Below, in pieces: positions 5,494-42,386 of a stretch of DNA of 64,000 bases. The notes beneath the pieces are model-generated. The model did not search any database. It saw nothing but the letters and a program-made list of their open reading frames with translations, and had not been told where the DNA came from. How positions within the stretch are numbered: the stretch's first letter is position 1; the number at the start of each line of letters is the position of its first letter. Made by a program: the position numbers and the translations under genes. The stretch comes from Syntrophobacterales bacterium (lineage in GTDB: Bacteria; Desulfobacterota; Syntrophobacteria; Syntrophobacterales; Thermodesulforhabdaceae), in assembly GCA_026417655.1 (NCBI GenBank), contig JAOACS010000012.1, forward strand, positions 1 to 64,000, written 5' to 3'.

Positions 5494-6276
5494 TTGGAAC
5501 TTAGCACTCTAGCCAGGATCGTTATAGACACTTTAATTACTACAGAGACCTTCCCTTATATGTGGCGAGATCCATTGATGGCCTGTGCCCGAGCCGATGA
5601 TCCGCTTTTTCTTCGTCTAAAAGAGGTTGTTACCCCTGATCACTTGATGCCAGATGATTTATTAAAGGGGGCAAAATCGGTAATTGTCTATTTTATCCCC
5701 TTTAGACGTGAGATTGGGATAGATAACTCATCAAATTATCCCTTTGCTTCCGAACTTTGGGCAAGAGCCTACATAGAAACTAATACTCTGATTTCCACAA
5801 TAAATGAAAGGCTTTCGGGTTTCCTCTCGCTTCATGGTTACCGATCAGCCATCACGCCTCCTACTCACAACTTTGATCCAGAGCTTCTAGTAAGCCGTTG
5901 GTCCCATAAGCATATAGGCTTCATCGCAGGACTTGGAACCTTTGGTCTTCACAGGCTTCTTATAACCCCTCTAGGGTGCTGTGGAAGACTAGGAAGTATT
6001 GTTACAGACGCTTATATAGAACCTTCAAAATACCAGAAAGAGGAGATTTGTCTTGAAAGGAGAGGCACAAAATGTAGTAAATGTGCCTCTCGATGCCCCG
6101 TTCAGGCTATAGGATCTAACGGGGAGTTTAACCGAAAAGAATGCTACAGGATGCTACTTGAAAACGATCGTCGCTACGGACACCTTCCCCTAACCGATGT
6201 GTGTGGCCATTGTTCCTGCGAGGTTCCCTGTAGCTATGGAGTGCCTACCTATCAAGCTTCTCAAGAACTTCCTTAA
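5494..6276 (+). CDS. QueG-like 4Fe-4S protein
   Basis: An iron-sulfur protein of about 260 residues related to epoxyqueuosine reductase (COG1600). It has a central GLGTFGLHRLLITPLGCCGRLGSI segment and cysteine clusters near the C-terminus (CSKCASRCP at about residues 194-202 and CGHCSCEVPC at about 237-246), enough for two clusters. True QueG proteins are longer and have a HEAT-like tail, which is absent, so queuosine synthesis is not assured; this may be a paralogue of unknown role. I prefer the TTG start at 5494, because AGGAG lies six bases upstream; a TTG directly after the eno stop (5461) is the alternative. The 3' end overlaps cbiK convergently by 32 bases. Confidence 0.7.
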   Translation: MELSTLARIVIDTLITTETFPYMWRDPLMACARADDPLFLRLKEVVTPDHLMPDDLLKGAKSVIVYFIPFRREIGIDNSSNYPFASELWARAYIETNTLISTINERLSGFLSLHGYRSAITPPTHNFDPELLVSRWSHKHIGFIAGLGTFGLHRLLITPLGCCGRLGSIVTDAYIEPSKYQKEEICLERRGTKCSKCASRCPVQAIGSNGEFNRKECYRMLLENDRRYGHLPLTDVCGHCSCEVPCSYGVPTYQASQELP

Positions 6277-31036: not shown

Positions 31037-31570
31037 CTATTGAACTCCTGCCCCTAAAGCTTCTATAAGCCCAGGATTTTCAGAGCCCTTTGCTACCGAT
31101 ATAAGGTCTTCTAGAGAGCAAAATAGGTAACCCCTTGAGGCAGCAAAGCCTAAAAGGACTACATTAGCCATACGGTGATTTCCAAGCCTTAAGGCCGGTG
31201 TGTTTGCGTTGAAAAATATTATGTTTTCTTTTGTATAATTGGGGGAATTGCCCTTTACGGTCGATTCATTACAAATAATTATTCCCCCTTCTTTTAGGAG
31301 GTGGAGATAGGGAGGGATCGCCTCGGGGTGGAGCGAAATAAGAAGATCAGCATTACCTGGACGGATTAGGGGGCTCCAGAACTTATGAGTATTGGATAAG
31401 GGATCATAGATCTTTATATAACTTACAACATTTCCACCTCGCTGAGCCATTCCATGAGTTTCAGAGGCGAAGACAGAGAGATTTTTAAGAAGCGCTGCCT
31501 CAGTTACTAATTTTGTTAGGAATACTACGCCCTGGCCGCCAAAGCCAGAGATTACAATTTGCTGCTTCAT
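31037..31570 (-). CDS. iorB: indolepyruvate ferredoxin oxidoreductase, beta subunit
   Basis: A 177-residue gamma-domain subunit of the 2-oxoacid:ferredoxin oxidoreductase class. It opens QIVISGFGGQGVVFLTKLV and has ETHGMAQRGGNVVSYIKI, both typical. With IorA it converts aryl pyruvates (indole-, phenyl-, hydroxyphenylpyruvate) to arylacetyl-CoA with reduced ferredoxin. The start is the ATG at 31570, with GGGGAGGAGAAAGG upstream; it overlaps the iorA stop as ATGA. The longer upstream frame lies inside iorA and is not used. Confidence 0.94.
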   Translation of the reverse strand: MKQQIVISGFGGQGVVFLTKLVTEAALLKNLSVFASETHGMAQRGGNVVSYIKIYDPLSNTHKFWSPLIRPGNADLLISLHPEAIPPYLHLLKEGGIIICNESTVKGNSPNYTKENIIFFNANTPALRLGNHRMANVVLLGFAASRGYLFCSLEDLISVAKGSENPGLIEALGAGVQ

Positions 31571-33414
31571 AGTCCTTTCTCCTCCCCATTCCCGATAATT
31601 TCCAATCCTCCAAAGGGACATACATGAATACACACTCCACAACCTGCACAGAGCGCCTCATCGAGAATTACCGGTCTTTTGCGTCCTTGACTTACTAAGG
31701 CTGGACATTCAAACCTTTGGGAGCAGAGCTGACAGCCTCGGCACTTATCAGTAACCCTAATCCTAAGTCTAGGAGTTCTTTCTTTTTGCCGTCTATCGGT
31801 TACACAGGGACTTTCAACTATAACCACTGCCACCCCTTCCCTTTTGTCGAAGGCGTAATACCCGGCTTCTTTTAGGACCTCGATAATTCTGGATAGATCG
31901 TAGGCATTAACTGTTTCAATGAAGGAGACTCCACAGGCTTTGACTAGCTCTTTTATTGAAATCTTAAAGGGAGCTATATTTTCAGGTGTAGGCTGATGTC
32001 CAGTCATGGCCGTCGTTTTGTTGTCTAGAATAATGAGTATGAAACAGGCCTTTTGGGCTACAGCCTCAATAAGAGGGGGGATACCAGCGTGGAAGAAGGT
32101 TGAATCGCCTATAGTTGCAATTACTGGTGTGGGAAGATCCTCTTCTTTTAGCACCTTCGAAAAGCCTATAGCCTGCGAGATAGAGGCTCCCATGCATAAA
32201 ACTGTGTCCACAGAACCTAGATTGATACCCAAGGTATAACAGCCGATGTCGCTTGGATACACACCCTTTGGAAAGCACTTTCTAATGGCAAAAAAAACGG
32301 ATCTGTGGCCGCACCCGGGACATAGGGTCGGACGTCTTTGGGGGACTTCCTGGGGAGTAGGGATGTTTTTGGGATAAACTTCTGGTTGAAGCCAATCTGT
32401 AATAATCTTTTCGATTTTTTCAGGAAGAAGCTCCCCCTCCTGGGGTACATGACCTGTTTCTCGCCCTAACACTTTCACACCGTTTCTAATCTGGAGCTCT
32501 ATAACCGGATAGGTTTCTTCAAAGACCATAACCTCATCGAAGCTAGCGAGTTCCTCAAGAAGTTTTTTGGAAAGAGGATAGGGCATAATAACTTGGAAGA
32601 AGGGGATCCTATGCCATAGACCGATAGATTCCAAAATTTCTCTAGCATAGGAAGCTGTAATACCAGAAGATACTATACAACGTTTAGAAACTTTGCCATT
32701 GTCGAGAACCTCATCCCTATTTAGGAATCGAAATGTCTGATTTTCTTTAGCAAGAGCTCTTATCTTGTTGTTCAAAAGCCTATGAAGGTGTAAGCGAAAT
32801 TTAGGCGTTGCTGCCCATCGGGGGGGATTTTTTTCGAAAGAGGGTTTTACCTCAGGTATTTTAAAGGGTTTCACGGTTACATCCTGTCTTGCATGGCAAA
32901 TACGTGTAGTAGGTCGTAACATTACAGGGATTTCTAACTGTTCGGAGAGTTCAAAGGCCCTAGGAATTATTTCCTTCGCCTCTTTTGGAGACGAGGGATC
33001 AAATACAGGAATTTTTGCAAACATGGCGAAGAACCGGCTATCTTGCTCGGTTTGGGAACTGTGGGGGCCTGGGTCATCCGCTGATATAATGACAAACCCA
33101 CCTTTAGTGCCCGTGTAGGCACTACTCATCATGGGATCGGAGGCTACATTAAGGCCTACCTGTTTCATCATAACAGCGGATCTAACGCCAGCATAACTTG
33201 CCGCAAGAGCTATTTCAAAGGCGACTTTTTCATTAATGGACCATGCGGCGTGAATGTGTTCGAGATGTTCTCTAGTCTTAAGTTTTAGTATGGTATCCAA
33301 GATTTCCGATGCAGGCGTTCCCGGATAGGAGGCTGCTACAGAACATCCTGCTTCTATGAGTCCGTAAGCTATGGCTTCGTTTCCTAAGAGGACCTTTCGT
33401 TCTGCCACGGGCAA
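31567..33414 (-). CDS. iorA: indolepyruvate ferredoxin oxidoreductase, alpha subunit
   Basis: A 615-residue thiamine-diphosphate enzyme. It opens with a pyrimidine-binding-type domain (VLLGNEAIAYGLIEAGCSVA), has a TPP-binding domain with TLCPGCGHRS and IGDSTFFHAGIPPL, and ends with two [4Fe-4S] motifs, CRGCQLCSQRFECP and CAGCGVCIHVCP (about residues 555-605). This is the full IorA domain set at the normal length. The start is GTG with AAGGAGTTGCCC upstream. A terminator lies 19 bases upstream of the start, so the operon promoter must either sit very near or be read through from 33.7 kb. Confidence 0.95.
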   Translation of the reverse strand: MPVAERKVLLGNEAIAYGLIEAGCSVAASYPGTPASEILDTILKLKTREHLEHIHAAWSINEKVAFEIALAASYAGVRSAVMMKQVGLNVASDPMMSSAYTGTKGGFVIISADDPGPHSSQTEQDSRFFAMFAKIPVFDPSSPKEAKEIIPRAFELSEQLEIPVMLRPTTRICHARQDVTVKPFKIPEVKPSFEKNPPRWAATPKFRLHLHRLLNNKIRALAKENQTFRFLNRDEVLDNGKVSKRCIVSSGITASYAREILESIGLWHRIPFFQVIMPYPLSKKLLEELASFDEVMVFEETYPVIELQIRNGVKVLGRETGHVPQEGELLPEKIEKIITDWLQPEVYPKNIPTPQEVPQRRPTLCPGCGHRSVFFAIRKCFPKGVYPSDIGCYTLGINLGSVDTVLCMGASISQAIGFSKVLKEEDLPTPVIATIGDSTFFHAGIPPLIEAVAQKACFILIILDNKTTAMTGHQPTPENIAPFKISIKELVKACGVSFIETVNAYDLSRIIEVLKEAGYYAFDKREGVAVVIVESPCVTDRRQKERTPRLRIRVTDKCRGCQLCSQRFECPALVSQGRKRPVILDEALCAGCGVCIHVCPFGGLEIIGNGEEKGL

Positions 33415-36656: not shown

Positions 36657-36899
36657 ATGAGTAGCAAGGAAGAAGCGAAGGAGCGCATCATTAACTGGAT
36701 GAAGGAACAGAAAAAGAGTAAGCACTATTTCAACGACATCTGTAAGGCTGTTCCAGAGATTAACATGAGGGAAGCCAAGAAGTTAATAAATGAACTTGTA
36801 AGTGAAGGTCGGCTTCGCTATTGGACCAGTGGAAGCACCACTATGTATATGCTCCCAGGAGTAGATGATGTAGAGAAGGAAGAAAAAGGGATGGTGTAA
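36657..36899 (+). CDS. dsrD: dissimilatory sulfite reductase-associated protein DsrD
   Basis: An 80-residue winged-helix protein. The pattern EEAKERIINWMKEQKKSKHY..DICKAVPEINMREAKKLINE..EGRLRYWTSGSTTMYMLPG matches DsrD (78 residues in Desulfovibrio vulgaris). DsrD is reported to stimulate sulfite reduction by DsrAB and marks reductive sulfur metabolism. It normally lies downstream of dsrB; here it is the first gene of the operon, 36 bases before dsrA. A GGAGG site precedes the ATG. Confidence 0.93.
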   Translation: MSSKEEAKERIINWMKEQKKSKHYFNDICKAVPEINMREAKKLINELVSEGRLRYWTSGSTTMYMLPGVDDVEKEEKGMV

Positions 36900-36935: not shown

Positions 36936-38210
36936 ATGGCGTTAAAACACAAGACCCCTATGCTAGATGAATTAATGAAGGGGCCATGGCCAAGTTTTGT
37001 TACAGACATCAAGCGGGTTGCAGAGAGAAAGCCACAGTGTGACGATATCCTAGGTTTGATGGAGTTATCCTATAAGGATAGAGAAGGTCACTGGAAGCAT
37101 GGTGGTATTGTAGGGGTTTTTGGATACGGTGGAGGTGTTATTGGACGCTATTGTGATAGGCCTGACCTTTTCCCCAATGTGGCTCACTTCCATACGATGC
37201 GAGTCAATCAGCCGGCCAGTAAATTCTATAAGACCGATGTTTTGAGGAAGCTATGTGATATTTGGGAAGAAAAGGGAAGTGGTCTTTTCAACTTCCATGG
37301 GTCTACCGGTGATATTATTCTTTTGGGAACCACAACCGACCAGTTGGAAGCTATTTTCTATGAGCTTACTCACGAACTTGGGATGGATCTTGGTGGGTCT
37401 GGATCCAACATGAGGACTCCTGAGGGTTGTGTAGGAAGGGCTCGTTGTGAATGGTCCTGCCTTGATACCCAGGACATAGTTTATGATATTACGATGAGGT
37501 ATCAGGACGAGCTCCATCGACCCGCGTTCCCCTACAAATTCAAATTCAAGGTTTCTGGTTGCCCCAATGATTGTGTTGCTGCCATTGCTCGGGCCGACTG
37601 TTCCATCATTGGAACCTGGCGTGACAAGATACGTATAGATCAAGAGGCGGTAAGAGCCTACGTGGGTGGTGAGTTGGTGCCCCATGGAGGAGCGGATGGG
37701 CCGGAGAAAAGACCTCTAGATATTCAGGCGGAAGTTATTGACAAGTGTCCTACCAAATGCATGGAGTGGGATGGTAAGAATCTCAAGATTTGGGATGAAG
37801 ACTGTGTTCGTTGCATGCACTGCATAAATATTATGCCAAGAGCTCTCCGTCCCGGCGAAGATGTTGGGGCGACAATACTTGTTGGATCGAAGGCACCGAT
37901 TCTTGAAGGAGCTCAGCTTTCCAGCGTTATCATTCCGTTTATGAAGATGGAGCCTCCTTACGAGGAATTTCATGAGTTTGTTGGTAAGATGTGGGATTGG
38001 TGGATGGAACATGGTAAGAACCGTGAACGCCTTGGGGAGCTTATTCAGAGACTTGGTATGAGAGAATTTCTCAGGGCTACAGATGTTAAACCAGATCCAA
38101 GAATGGTTAATACTCCTAGATACAATCCCTACATATTCTATGACCCAGATGACGTGCCTGGAGGATGGTCAAGAGATCCAAAGGCTTATCGTGAACGTCA
38201 TCAGCCTTAA
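36936..38210 (+). CDS. dsrA: dissimilatory sulfite reductase subunit alpha
   Basis: DsrA, 424 residues (437 in D. vulgaris). It forms the alpha2beta2 core that reduces sulfite with electrons from the membrane, forming a DsrC trisulfide in the cytoplasm. The sirohaem/[4Fe-4S] cysteines are in GCVGRARCEWSC and GCPNDCVAAIARADC. The inserted ferredoxin domain has KCPTKCMEW and DCVRCMHCIN. AAGGAGGGAAG precedes the ATG. Confidence 0.98.
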   Translation: MALKHKTPMLDELMKGPWPSFVTDIKRVAERKPQCDDILGLMELSYKDREGHWKHGGIVGVFGYGGGVIGRYCDRPDLFPNVAHFHTMRVNQPASKFYKTDVLRKLCDIWEEKGSGLFNFHGSTGDIILLGTTTDQLEAIFYELTHELGMDLGGSGSNMRTPEGCVGRARCEWSCLDTQDIVYDITMRYQDELHRPAFPYKFKFKVSGCPNDCVAAIARADCSIIGTWRDKIRIDQEAVRAYVGGELVPHGGADGPEKRPLDIQAEVIDKCPTKCMEWDGKNLKIWDEDCVRCMHCINIMPRALRPGEDVGATILVGSKAPILEGAQLSSVIIPFMKMEPPYEEFHEFVGKMWDWWMEHGKNRERLGELIQRLGMREFLRATDVKPDPRMVNTPRYNPYIFYDPDDVPGGWSRDPKAYRERHQP

Positions 38211-38243: not shown

Positions 38244-39344
38244 ATGCCATTCGATCCTAATGATATAATGAAAGATCGTCTTACAGATATAGGTCCCCCA
38301 AAATACGACAAGTTTTTCCCGCCCATCGTAAAGGAAAACTATGGAAAGTGGAAATACCATGAAATTCTTGAACCAGGTGTTTTGCTTCATGTATCCGAGA
38401 CGGGTGCTAAGCTTTACTCGGTAAGAGTTGGAACAGCTCGTCTCGTTACCGTAGACTACATAAGAGAAGTCTGCGATATCGCTGATAAATATTGTGATGG
38501 TTACTTGAGGTGGACTACGAGAAATAATATTGAATTTCTAATAACCGATGAATCCAAACTTCGTCCCCTTATAGAAGACCTAAAAAGCCGTGGTAATTGG
38601 TTTCCCATAGGAGGAACCGGTGCGAGCATCACAAATATTGTTCATACCCAGGGCTGGATTCACTGCCATACTCCAGCAACCGATTCTTCGGGTATTGTTA
38701 AGGCTGTGATGGATGAACTTTTCGAATACTTTGGCTCCCATAAACTTCCTGCCCAGGTAAGAATAGCTCTTGCTTGCTGTCTTAATATGTGTGGTGCTGT
38801 CCATTGCTCTGACATAGCTATACTTGGTGTCCACCGTAAGCCTCCCTTTATCGAACATGAGCGTGTCCAAAATGTTTGCGAAATCCCCCTTGTTATTGCC
38901 TCCTGCCCGACGGCGGCCATCAAGCCAAAGAAGGTGGGTGAATACAAGAGTATAGAAATTAATGAGGCTCGGTGCATGTTCTGTGGAAACTGTTACACCA
39001 TGTGCCCGGCCCTTCCTATCGCTGACCAGGATGGTGACGGAATAGCTATATGGGTAGGTGGTAAGGTGTCTAACTCTAGAGTTCCTCCGATGTTCTCTAA
39101 ACTTGCTATCCCCTATCTTCCCAATGAGCCTCCTCGTTGGCCTTCAACCGTAAAGGCAGTTAAGAAGATAGTTGAAATATATGCCTCCGATGCTCGTCGC
39201 TATGAGCGTATTGGTGAATGGATCAATCGAATCGGGTGGGAACGCTTCTTTGAAAAGACGGGATTCGAATTTCGTCATGAGCATATTGATGACTATCGTC
39301 TTGCTATGACAACTTGGAGAACCACAACCCAATTTAAGTTCTAG
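38244..39344 (+). CDS. dsrB: dissimilatory sulfite reductase subunit beta
   Basis: DsrB, 366 residues, the subunit carrying the catalytically active sirohaem in structures of the enzyme. Cysteine motifs [13 protein letters not shown] (sirohaem-cluster site) and [18 protein letters not shown] (ferredoxin domain) are intact, as is the end [23 protein letters not shown] site precedes the ATG, 33 bases after dsrA. A strong stem-loop at 39355-39389 follows its stop. Confidence 0.98.
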
Positions 39345-39354
39345 TAAAAACGGT

Positions 39355-39389
39355 ATGGGAAGGGATTATTTAGAAAAATCCCTTCCCAT
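39355..39389 (+). other. 13-bp perfect stem-loop at the dsrB/dsrN junction
   Basis: ATGGGAAGGGATT (39355-39367) pairs perfectly with AATCCCTTCCCAT (39377-39389) around a 9-base loop, eight bases after the dsrB stop codon. It lacks a clear U-run (GCATATTGGAATTTT follows), so it is more likely an mRNA 3'-end stabiliser or partial attenuator that sets dsrAB above the downstream genes. Confidence 0.75.
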
Positions 39390-39429
39390 GCATATTGGAA
39401 TTTTACCGGAATGGTCTACCGAGAATTCA

Positions 39430-40923
39430 ATGAAAAATTCAATTCAGAAGAATTGTTCTACCGGTTTGGAAAGACCTCATGGTTTTATCATCGCTGCCGT
39501 TAAAGGAGGGTCGGGTAAGACCTTTGTCTCAGTTGGTCTTTTGGCCGCTTTGAAATATCTTGGTTATAACGTTACCCCCTTCAAGAAGGGACCCGATTAC
39601 ATCGATGCGGGATGGCTTGCTGCAGCAGCAGGTGGGACCTGTTATAATCTGGATCCCTTTTTAATGAGTAGAAAGGACATTGTTGTTTCGTTCTGTAGTC
39701 GTATAGCTAGATCTGATATGGCTATCGTTGAAGGTAATCGGGGACTGTTCGATGGTCTTGATGATGATGGTAGCTGCTCAACAGCGGAACTTGCAAAGAT
39801 TCTTGATCTTCCAATAATTCTTATCATCGATGTTACTAAAATGACAAGAACCACAGCCGCTATTGTATATGGTTGCAGACACTTCGACAAAGACCTTAAC
39901 ATCGTAGGGATAATTCTTAATCAGGTTGGAACCTCCCGCCAGGAGGAACTTATTCGAAGAGTTGTTGAAAAAACCTGCAATGTGCCAGTTGTTGGAGCTA
40001 TCCCAAGACTATCCAGAAATTTATTCCCCGAAAGACATCTAGGGCTTGTGCCTACTCCCGAACACGGTAGTCTGTCGAAGGCCATTGATTATGCCAGAAA
40101 GATTATAGAGAAATCATTGGAGTTAGAAAAGATCTTGTCACTCTCGAAACCGGTAAGCCTTTGTAGTATTGACGAAAACAAGCCAGATATTTCCAAATTG
40201 AAACATAGTGACGTTACTATTGGCGTAATAAGAGATGAGGCTTTTCAGTTCTATTATCCTGAAAATTTTGAGGCACTCGAAAGAGCTGGAGCAAGACTTG
40301 AGTTTTTATCCGCTTTAAAGGATAAGCACCTACCCCTTGAGATAGATGGGCTTTACATAGGTGGAGGGTTTCCGGAGGTTTACGCAGAGGCTCTAGCTGA
40401 GAATAAGTCGTTTAAAGCTGAATTAAGGGATGCCATTGATAGAGGGATGCCAGTTTATGCCGAATGTGGTGGACTGATGTATTTAAGTGAGCATATTAGG
40501 AAGGATGAACGTAATTTCCCAATGGTAGGAGTCTTTCCCCTCGCAGTGGAGATGAGAAAAAAACCCCAGGGACATGGTTATGTAGTTGGTCAGGTGATTA
40601 GAGAAAATCCTTTCCTACCTGTTGGGTTATCCATAAGGGCTCACGAATTTCACTATTCAAAGGCTTTTTTGAGACGAGAAGAAAAAGATATTGGTTTTGT
40701 TGTTGGGTTACATAAGGGTCACGGAATAGTTGAACAATTTGATGGAATAATGTATAAAAATTGCGTAGCCCTGTATGCTCATATCCACGCGTTAGCCTGT
40801 AAGGAATGGGCAGTCAATTTTGTAGCGGCTGCTCAGACCTATAGGATAGAAAAGAGCATGAAGCCAGGAGGAATTGAGAGATTCAATCTTTCGGCTGTAA
40901 ATGATCAGAAATGTAACGTTTAA
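39430..40923 (+). CDS. cbiA: cobyrinic acid a,c-diamide synthase, DsrN type
   Basis: A 497-residue glutamine amidotransferase of the CbiA/CobB family. The DsrN member linked to dsr is thought to amidate sirohaem for DsrAB. Key parts are the P-loop AAVKGGSGKTFVSVGLLAAL, FKKGPDYIDAGWL, and the amidase nucleophile in YAECGGLMYLSEH. I place the start at ATG 39430 (MKNSIQKN), since the in-frame ATGs at 39355 and 39388 lie in the stem-loop; the exact start is uncertain. dsrC follows 20 bases later. Confidence 0.85.
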   Translation: MKNSIQKNCSTGLERPHGFIIAAVKGGSGKTFVSVGLLAALKYLGYNVTPFKKGPDYIDAGWLAAAAGGTCYNLDPFLMSRKDIVVSFCSRIARSDMAIVEGNRGLFDGLDDDGSCSTAELAKILDLPIILIIDVTKMTRTTAAIVYGCRHFDKDLNIVGIILNQVGTSRQEELIRRVVEKTCNVPVVGAIPRLSRNLFPERHLGLVPTPEHGSLSKAIDYARKIIEKSLELEKILSLSKPVSLCSIDENKPDISKLKHSDVTIGVIRDEAFQFYYPENFEALERAGARLEFLSALKDKHLPLEIDGLYIGGGFPEVYAEALAENKSFKAELRDAIDRGMPVYAECGGLMYLSEHIRKDERNFPMVGVFPLAVEMRKKPQGHGYVVGQVIRENPFLPVGLSIRAHEFHYSKAFLRREEKDIGFVVGLHKGHGIVEQFDGIMYKNCVALYAHIHALACKEWAVNFVAAAQTYRIEKSMKPGGIERFNLSAVNDQKCNV

Positions 40924-40943: not shown

Positions 40944-41264
40944 ATGGCGAGCACAATTGAGTACAAAGGCAAAGTTTTTGAAGTTGACGAAGATGGATTC
41001 ATTTCTAGCTTTGATCAGTGGTGCCCTGAGTGGGTCGAATACGTGAAAAAGTCCGAAGGTATTGAAGAACTTACGGAAGCTCATTGGAAGATCATTAACA
41101 TCCTTCAGGATTATTACAAGAAACATGGTATTGCTCCAATGGTGAGAATTCTAACTAAGCTCACCGGTTACAAACTTAAGGAGATTTATGAACTCTTTCC
41201 ATCCGGACCTGGTAAGGGAGCTTGTAAAATGGCAGGACTTCCTAAACCTACCGGTTGTGTATAG
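40944..41264 (+). CDS. dsrC: sulfur-carrier protein DsrC
   Basis: DsrC, 106 residues. The C-terminal arm GACKMAGLPKPTGCV has both conserved cysteines (Cys94 and the penultimate Cys105, ten residues apart), which carry the trisulfide product of DsrAB for reduction by DsrMKJOP. The N-terminal text KVFEVDEDGFISSFDQW and the HGIAPMVRILTK strand are typical. An AAAGGAGGTG site lies upstream. In most sulfate reducers dsrC is unlinked to dsrAB; here it shares the operon. Confidence 0.97.
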   Translation: MASTIEYKGKVFEVDEDGFISSFDQWCPEWVEYVKKSEGIEELTEAHWKIINILQDYYKKHGIAPMVRILTKLTGYKLKEIYELFPSGPGKGACKMAGLPKPTGCV

Positions 41265-41398
41265 GAGATCCTTTTTGTAATTTAATGATAGAAAGCAGGC
41301 TGGCCATTCTTTCATGAGGCGAAATCATGACCAGCAGGCTGTTTATGATAGGGATGGTGGTTATAGGAATTTAGTTTTAGTAGAAGGAGATCCGGTCA

Positions 41399-41584
41399 AT
41401 GTGGAGAGTAACAGTTGAAAAGGATAAGTGTGTAGGTGATGGTGAGTGTGTGGAAGTGTGCCCTGTGAACGTCTACGAAATGATCGATGGCAAAGCTGAA
41501 CCTGTAAATGCTGACGAGTGTCTTGGCTGTGAAAGCTGTGTTGAGGTGTGTGAACAGGGAGCGATCACTGTCGAGGAGATTTAG
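41399..41584 (+). CDS. ferredoxin with CxxDxxC and 4Fe-4S motifs
   Basis: A 61-residue ferredoxin. The first cluster motif is Cys11-Val-Gly-Asp14-Gly-Glu-Cys17..Cys21-Pro, with Asp replacing the second cysteine; the second is complete (Cys41, Cys44, Cys47, Cys51). This equals the arrangement of Desulfovibrio africanus ferredoxin III, whose CxxDxxC site holds a [3Fe-4S] cluster that can take up a fourth metal. It is the last gene of the dsr run, 134 bases after dsrC, and could donate electrons in sulfite reduction (inference). Confidence 0.92.
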   Translation: MWRVTVEKDKCVGDGECVEVCPVNVYEMIDGKAEPVNADECLGCESCVEVCEQGAITVEEI

Positions 41585-41603
41585 CATCGTTAAAAACTAT
41601 GAT

Positions 41604-41640
41604 AAAAGGGGCTCGCTAACCTAGGCGAGCCCTTTTATAT
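41604..41640 (+). terminator. intrinsic terminator after the dsr locus
   Basis: AAAAGGGGCTCGC-TAACCTAG-GCGAGCCCTTTT followed by ATATT: a strong stem with A/U flanks, 20 bases after the ferredoxin stop. It ends the dsr operon. Confidence 0.92.
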
Positions 41641-41666
41641 TGCAAGGTGAATGGGATCTAGAAATA

Positions 41667-42386
41667 ATGGCGAGCTTGGGCACTTTTTACGGTATCGGAG
41701 TCGGTCCTGGAGATCCAGAGCTCTTGACCCTGAAGGCTATTAAAATCTTACAGAAGGTCCCCCATGTTTTTGCCGCATCCTCTTCAAAAAACGACTACAG
41801 TGTGGCTCTTCAAGCGGTTCGAAATTATCTTTCCCCCGGTGTTCAAGTTTATTCCTTACCCTTTCCTATGACCTATGATCAGGAAAAATTGGAAAAAGCT
41901 TGGCACGATAACTGCCGTTCGATCCTCAGTCTGTTACTTAAGGGAGAAGATGTGGCCTTTATAACTATTGGTGATCCTCTAATCTACAGCACTTACATAT
42001 ATCTTTTACGAAAGATCCGTTCTCTGTGTCCGGAAGTTTCGGTTCAGACCATCCCGGGTATAACATCCTTTCAAGCTGCAGCATCTGTTTGCAATATTCC
42101 CCTAGTGGAAGGTGAGGAATCCATGGCTGTTGTGTCCGGTGCCCAGGGAGTAAGCCATTTGGAAAAGACTCTCGAGTCCTGTGATACGGTTGTTATGCTT
42201 AAGGTATATCGTCAAATGCCAGAGATAATCGAGACTCTCGAGAAGCGCTCTCTAAGTAGTTCTATTTGTTACGTAAGTAGATGTGGATTCTACGATCAAG
42301 AGGTCGTTCAAGCGTTGGAGGAGTTGAAAAATAGGACTCCCCATTACCTCTCGCTCATGATTGTTAAGAAAAAGGGTTTGTTTTAA
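41667..42386 (+). CDS. cobI: precorrin-2/cobalt-factor II C20-methyltransferase
   Basis: A 239-residue SAM-dependent corrin methyltransferase (CobI/CbiL). The tetrapyrrole methylase signature FYGIGVGPGDPELLTLKAIK is at the N-terminus, with AFITIGDPLIYSTYIYLL and PGITSFQAAASVCNIPLVEG next. It methylates C20 of the B12 precursor produced by CbiK. The chosen start is ATG 41667; a TTG 27 bases earlier is inside the terminator tail. It is separated from dsr by that terminator, so it needs its own promoter or readthrough. Its end lies four bases from the opposing glycosyltransferase gene. Confidence 0.9.
   Translation: MASLGTFYGIGVGPGDPELLTLKAIKILQKVPHVFAASSSKNDYSVALQAVRNYLSPGVQVYSLPFPMTYDQEKLEKAWHDNCRSILSLLLKGEDVAFITIGDPLIYSTYIYLLRKIRSLCPEVSVQTIPGITSFQAAASVCNIPLVEGEESMAVVSGAQGVSHLEKTLESCDTVVMLKVYRQMPEIIETLEKRSLSSSICYVSRCGFYDQEVVQALEELKNRTPHYLSLMIVKKKGLF

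Follow-up and report, generated by a model that had tools for sequence, protein, structure and literature searches.

What does a small ferredoxin do when its gene directly follows dsrC and its first cluster motif is short of a cysteine? The question is raised by a locus in the window (the whole 64,000-nucleotide stretch of DNA analyzed here, from a Syntrophobacterales bacterium), where an earlier note had proposed a redox- or metal-sensing electron carrier for sulfite reduction.

Gene and operon

The ferredoxin gene (fdx, start codon ATG) is the last in the order dsrD-dsrA-dsrB-cobB/dsrN-dsrC-fdx, all on the + strand. The features are as follows.

36657..36899, + strand: dsrD (PF08679, 2.4e-28)
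36936..38210, + strand: dsrA (TIGR02064, over cutoff)
38244..39344, + strand: dsrB (TIGR02066, over cutoff)
39355..40923, + strand: cobB/cbiA-type amidase gene, probably dsrN (TIGR00379, 452 bits, over cutoff)
40944..41264, + strand: dsrC (PF04358, 9.7e-37; TIGR03342, 120.7 bits, cutoff 53.5)
41384..41389, + strand: AAGGAG, ribosome-binding-site-like, 9 nt 5' of the fdx ATG (read from the sequence)
41399..41584, + strand: fdx, 61-aa ferredoxin with CxxDxxCxxxCP and CxxCxxCxxxCE (open reading frame translation, Fer4 models)
41438..41440, + strand: Asp14 codon GAT, second ligand position of motif I (read from the sequence)
41605..41636, + strand: 13-bp hairpin 3' of fdx, likely operon end (RNA folding)
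41667..42386, + strand: cobI/cbiL-type methyltransferase gene, downstream of fdx (TIGR01467, over cutoff)

The neighboring dsrC, on which the earlier note had relied, is confirmed by its TIGR03342 score, and its product carries C-terminal Cys94 and Cys105, spaced by ten residues. A passage of the Dsr survey PMC10504309 gives the role of DsrN as siroheme amidation. Downstream of fdx, the region 41585 to 41650 folds at −24.5 kcal/mol (z, −4.78; 0 of 200 shuffles equally stable), and terminator prediction listed the hairpin for the − strand only. The same prediction flagged nothing terminator-like in the dsrC-fdx gap, which is 134 nt long, against 97 to 895 nt (median, 340 nt) across 64 measured pairs with duplicates included, so separate promoters are possible. 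The cobI/cbiL gene also adjoins fdx in a same-genus genome (G001) and was not seen beside fdx at the other compared loci, where flanks were often only 1.5 kb. An overlapping 63-aa mechanical open reading frame on the opposite strand gave no sign of being a gene. An indolepyruvate:ferredoxin oxidoreductase alpha subunit is encoded 8 kb from fdx on the − strand (31567 to 33414; TIGR03336, over cutoff) and is a possible electron source for the ferredoxin.

Motif I of the protein reads C11-V-G-D14-G-E-C17-V-E-V-C21-P, and motif II (C41-x2-C44-x2-C47-x3-C51-E) is complete and normal. The protein thus has seven ligand cysteines (11, 17, 21, 41, 44, 47, and 51) with Asp at residue 14, not the eight of a clostridial-type 2[4Fe-4S] ferredoxin, which its Cys14 relatives do have. 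It matches the Fer4 models of Pfam (best, PF00037, 2.5e-14), exceeds no NCBIfam cutoff among the best 25 of 64 matches, and is not a member of the nif-specific ferredoxin III model (TIGR02936, 31.2 bits against a cutoff of 80.55). A single copy was found in its own genome, where the next-best match is 41% identical. The substitution itself, as the earlier note had read it, is real: a DNA pattern for CxxDxxCxxxCP has a single match in the 2.30-Mb genome, at fdx. The CxxCxxCxxxCP version has 79 (24 on the forward strand and 55 on the reverse), not all of which are genes, since an in-frame stop interrupts at least one. Reversed-pattern controls for both versions gave 0 occurrences each in the genome.

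Co-occurrence with dsrA

The ferredoxin was found in 53 of the 59 relatives searched and in all 37 that were ≥90% complete and ≤5% contaminated. Across a phylum sample of 297 genomes (each ≥85% complete), a match at E ≤ 1e-10 was present in 151 and dsrA in 145. At E ≤ 1e-15, 116 genomes had both, 12 had the ferredoxin only, 29 had dsrA only, and 140 had neither, so that the ferredoxin accompanied dsrA in 116/145 genomes and occurred in 12/152 lacking it. Fisher p values for co-occurrence, which ignore shared descent, were 1e-39 and smaller. Genomes with both dsrA and DsrD, taken as a marker of reductive Dsr, carried the ferredoxin in 114/120 cases at E ≤ 1e-10 and 102/120 at E ≤ 1e-15; the figures for dsrA-bearing genomes without a DsrD match were 16/25 and 14/25. 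DsrH, a marker for oxidative-type Dsr, was found in 1 of the 297 genomes and, being so rare, cannot settle whether oxidative Dsr explains the genomes with dsrA and no ferredoxin.

Linkage to the dsr operons

We fetched 120 stretches around ferredoxin copies from the phylum and class samples and scored a copy as linked if dsrA started no more than 20 kb away on its contig or if the fetched stretch (usually 6 kb per side) included a dsr gene. By our own estimate such a stretch is about 1 to 2% of a 2- to 5-Mb genome, so few linkages are expected by chance. In the 116 genomes with dsrA and ferredoxin, fdx lay near dsrAB/C/D only in 31, near dsrMKJOP only in 17, and near both in 18, which gives linkage in 66 of 98 judgeable genomes (18/116 were not judgeable). 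In the other 32 of the 98, which include the judgeable members of family f44, neither dsrAB/C/D nor dsrMKJOP genes lay close to the ferredoxin. The first stretches gave this result for 26 of the 32, and longer ones added G092, G230, G254, G265, G269, and G303, of which G230 and G269 have a cobB/dsrN-type gene about 2 kb from the ferredoxin.

Of the 41 families whose context was usable, class and order relatives counted in, 24 showed linkage, and by such recurrence in many families the ferredoxin ranks as a Dsr system component by association. The dsr link suggested earlier is thus conserved and wider than had been claimed, extending to 116/145 genomes with dsrA and to both the dsrAB/C/D and dsrMKJOP operons.

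The idea that unlinked copies are unrelated to dsr was rejected in part, because dsrM, K, J, O, or P genes turned up in 19 of the 62 loci that the initial scoring had placed away from dsrAB/C/D. At 15 of the 62, fdx directly follows dsrP. DsrM, K, J, O, and P were the commonest recurring neighbors away from dsrAB, and one representative of each exceeded its own NCBIfam cutoff. At 14 of the 62 loci an RsbRD_N-domain protein (PF14361) is encoded just 5' of dsrM (e.g., L191:153-701); that it is DsrT is possible, and a guess. In family f5, three to four head-to-tail ferredoxin copies directly follow dsrP (L255:5050-6183 and L258:7385-8631, in G046 and G042).

A further 80 named loci, found by window-protein patterns and so biased to near relatives (some are the same places as in the sampled genomes), held 98 copies. 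Of these, 30 were in loci with dsrC, 7 were in loci with dsrA, B, or D and no dsrC (such as L087 and L098 of Desulfobulbaceae), and 61 were in loci without dsrA, B, C, or D, tandem copies and short contigs counted. In the portion of the Dsr protein synteny survey consulted, ferredoxin is mentioned once, as a fused domain (PMC10504309).

Variation at residue 14

Residue 14 was compared in 195 copies from the fetched loci, among the matches listed (those of 12 relatives and some extra copies fall outside this set). Copies with <65 bits or <42 aligned residues and one truncated copy (G304) were dropped; of the 8 genomes in family f33, 4 lost their copies in this way, and each of these had Cys14. 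The residue was Asp in 131 copies, Cys in 58, Lys in 6, and nothing else, and the seven other ligand cysteines were invariant except for one C51S. Codons were GAT/GAC, TGT/TGC, and AAA/AAG, respectively. Asp to Cys takes two base changes, and the single-step intermediates, Tyr or Gly, were absent among the 195 copies.

An unrooted tree was built from the 195 rows (60 columns, with the residue-14 column excluded); 103 of its 181 inner branches were open and 16 were starred. The three states required 15 changes on the best tree. Asp against the rest required 14 (shuffled mean, 54), of which well-supported branches force at least 5. Since the tree is unrooted, gain of Asp cannot be told from its loss.

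The exchange reaches the locus of interest. The earlier note had asked whether Asp14 is conserved in homologues next to dsrC and had named Cys there as refuting its proposal; strict conservation is rejected, because Cys14 occurs at the dsrC-fdx locus in G017 and in G003, the latter from the window's own family, f1 (the named record L071 is the same place as G003, not a third case). Asp14 and Cys14 copies coexist in three genomes (G007, G040, and G048). In G040 and G048, one Cys14 copy each lies amid Asp14 neighbors. In G007, the second, Cys14 copy (L239, about 5992 to 6180) has an in-frame TAG at its apparent start and either starts later or is a broken gene.

Lys14 was confined to family f24, in 6/6 copies (L132, L134, L139, L158, L169, and L176; e.g., CDGKGEC). 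No dsrAB/C/D or dsrMKJOP gene adjoins the f24 ferredoxin in L158, L304, or L305, although a 27%-identical DsrK-like protein is encoded 7 kb from it in L305. In the same family the dsr genes, from dsrA through dsrP, form a single cluster that lacks the ferredoxin gene (L291 and L292).

Asp14 was found in 63/68 copies near dsrAB/C/D, 22/33 near dsrMKJOP only, and 13/40 near neither, counts that leave out 55 copies of unjudged context. Stated otherwise, copies with any dsr gene nearby were Asp in 85 cases and Cys in 16, and those with none were Asp in 13, Cys in 26, and Lys in 1; six of the 55 were judged later, all without dsr nearby, and were Asp (4), Cys (1), and Lys (1). Independent pairs were too few for Asp14 and dsrABCD linkage, and a dependence test on the unstable tree gave p = 0.013, so that the tie between Asp14 and dsr linkage, weaker once descent is counted, is suggestive only. 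Coupling between residue 14 and residue 33 (Ala/Ser) gave a likelihood ratio of 20.8; in a 39-column scan, residue 33 scored 14.1 and was matched by residues 39 (15.2) and 5 (14.3), and coupling of 14 with 33 is therefore not claimed.

Proposed role

Our preferred reading, to which we give about an even chance, is that the protein is a cytoplasmic carrier of the Dsr system of the Desulfovibrio africanus ferredoxin III type, probably made with DsrABCD and most likely exchanging electrons with the Dsr enzymes. It draws on the sequence and gene order, on how widely the ferredoxin accompanies dsrA, on its linkage to two operons, and on the Asp/Cys/Lys pattern, and from these we infer the cluster assignment, co-transcription, electron direction, and partner. 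By two-cluster ferredoxin chemistry, Asp14 would lead to carboxylate or solvent ligation of one iron of the Cys11/Cys17/Cys51 cluster. Here, an ordinary [4Fe-4S] cluster would be held by Cys41, Cys44, Cys47, and probably Cys21, and a site-differentiated cluster by Cys11, Cys17, and Cys51, its fourth iron bound by Asp14 or by solvent. The leading candidate step would be transfer from the ferredoxin to DsrAB of the two electrons for loading sulfite sulfur onto DsrC. For a sulfur disproportionator, one passage draws reverse-running DsrAB as handing two electrons to an acceptor that it calls unknown (PMC12142623), which makes the ferredoxin a fair candidate for that partner. The literature passages held no biochemical evidence of ferredoxin electron transfer to DsrAB.

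Exchange of residue 14 would tune cluster stability or potential. The repeated natural replacement of Asp by Cys or the reverse argues against a need for an open iron site in all hosts, and the Lys14 form suggests that even a poor ligand is tolerated there; together these lead us to favor tuning over sensing as the function of the site. A more ambitious version, that a dedicated ferredoxin in the dsrABD-N-C or dsrMKJOP operon is a near-core part of the phylum's reductive Dsr, supplying DsrAB, with a switching Asp/Cys/Lys ligand that sets the first cluster as 4Fe-Cys, 4Fe-Asp, or 3Fe according to host, strikes us as doubtful.

The strongest alternative, a serious possibility short of even, is a general low-potential ferredoxin like Desulfovibrio ferredoxin I, fed by oxidation of pyruvate, CO, or other 2-oxoacids and making no direct contact with DsrAB. 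Its placement in dsr operons would then follow from sulfate reduction being the main sink, with which its expression must match, and a general carrier co-expressed with that sink would yield the same genomics. A passage on Desulfovibrio alaskensis describes ferredoxin I as the major cytoplasmic carrier, the partner of the main pyruvate oxidoreductase, and possibly essential (PMC4215793), from which the dsr linkage may reflect co-regulation only; the likeness to our protein is by description, not by family membership drawn from sequence. Consistent with a general carrier are the single such copy found in the window's genome, the indolepyruvate:ferredoxin oxidoreductase gene 8 kb off on the other strand (31567 to 33414), retention of the ferredoxin in 12/152 genomes lacking dsrA, and its position away from dsr genes in 32/98 judgeable genomes with dsrA. 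Co-occurrence with dsrA and adjacency to either dsr operon are, however, more specific than a general carrier needs.

It is improbable that the ferredoxin instead donates electrons for making or amidating the siroheme or cobalamin ring and not for sulfite reduction. The idea is prompted by cobB/dsrN upstream and cobI/cbiL downstream of fdx in the window and G001, by cobB/dsrN-type genes at 8 of the 62 loci (4 families), and by such a gene at a distance of about 2 kb in L296 and L301, two loci in which it was the only dsr gene found near fdx; yet of the compared loci, whose flanks are often short, the window and G001 alone showed cobI beside fdx, and DsrM, K, J, O, and P are the most recurrent neighbors away from dsrAB. 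Because dsrN counts among the dsr genes, finding it nearby does not discriminate between ring synthesis and sulfite reduction.

A redox or metal sensor, in which the open iron site of the Asp14 cluster would bind or release Fe, Zn, or Cd and so signal metal or redox state to sulfite reduction, is most improbable: a passage on D. africanus ferredoxin III describes uptake of Zn and other metals and binding of thiolate (PMC13111528), which is in vitro chemistry of another protein, but Cys14 occurs in 58 of the 195 copies and at the same locus, Lys14 occurs in 6, and no regulator or signaling domain was found in the seven window proteins scanned. Of the earlier interpretation, then, the aspartate and the dsr link stand, strict conservation of Asp14 is rejected, and sensing gains no support; an electron carrier for sulfite reduction is, judged from sequence, a plausible candidate role.

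Comparison with known ferredoxins

The best NCBIfam match of the window protein is the HgcB mercury-methylation ferredoxin (NF040864, 5.9e-13), of which it is not a member (48.5 bits against a cutoff of 99). The 1xer ferredoxin and the 2vkr zinc-containing ferredoxin, which we take to be from Sulfolobales, share CxxDxxCxxxCP, with the Asp aligned with Asp14, and differ in chain length, being 103 aa long with additional residues at the N terminus. The Pyrococcus furiosus ferredoxin (1siz/1sj1), of which 1siz matches residues 2 to 60 of the window protein at 1.4e-8, is archaeal and has a single cluster. We assume that 1siz/1sj1 and a second sequence (2z8q/3pni/4dhv) are both this ferredoxin and that 2z8q is its Asp14→Cys mutant. 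Passages in two papers describe the Pyrococcus cluster as naturally Asp ligated (PMC4070099, PMC5715301), and one of them also treats Asp ligation in D. africanus ferredoxin III (PMC5715301).

The nearest likeness is to D. africanus ferredoxin III (7Fe/8Fe), from a sulfate reducer, with Asp at residue 14 of motif I. The window protein has the marks of a ferredoxin III-like (Asp14) protein, namely, CxxDxxCxxxCP and a full CxxCxxCxxxC motif in 61 aa. Busch reportedly made the Asp14→Cys change in D. africanus ferredoxin III in 1997; the residue number equals that of this published target, which supports the earlier note on this point. According to a passage in PMC13111528, ferredoxin III has one stable [4Fe-4S] cluster and one reactive cluster, into which voltammetry showed entry of Zn and other metals and binding of exogenous thiolate; the same pair of clusters would be expected of the window protein, likened to it by motif and residue number.

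No title or abstract opening that we found places a ferredoxin in dsr operons. FEMS papers of about 2000 to 2001 that describe dsr operons from Desulfobacter vibrioformis and Thermodesulforhabdus norvegica reportedly include a gene for a ferredoxin; isolated instances of the dsr link would then already be in print. The window protein belongs to the known Asp14 ferredoxins; the apparent novelty lies in how broadly the gene is linked to two operons and in the three states of residue 14. A ferredoxin that follows dsr genes across a phylum sample and is linked to them in 24 families is a concrete candidate electron partner of sulfite reduction, and the pattern at residue 14 provides a set of natural counterparts to the laboratory Asp14→Cys change in D. 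africanus ferredoxin III.
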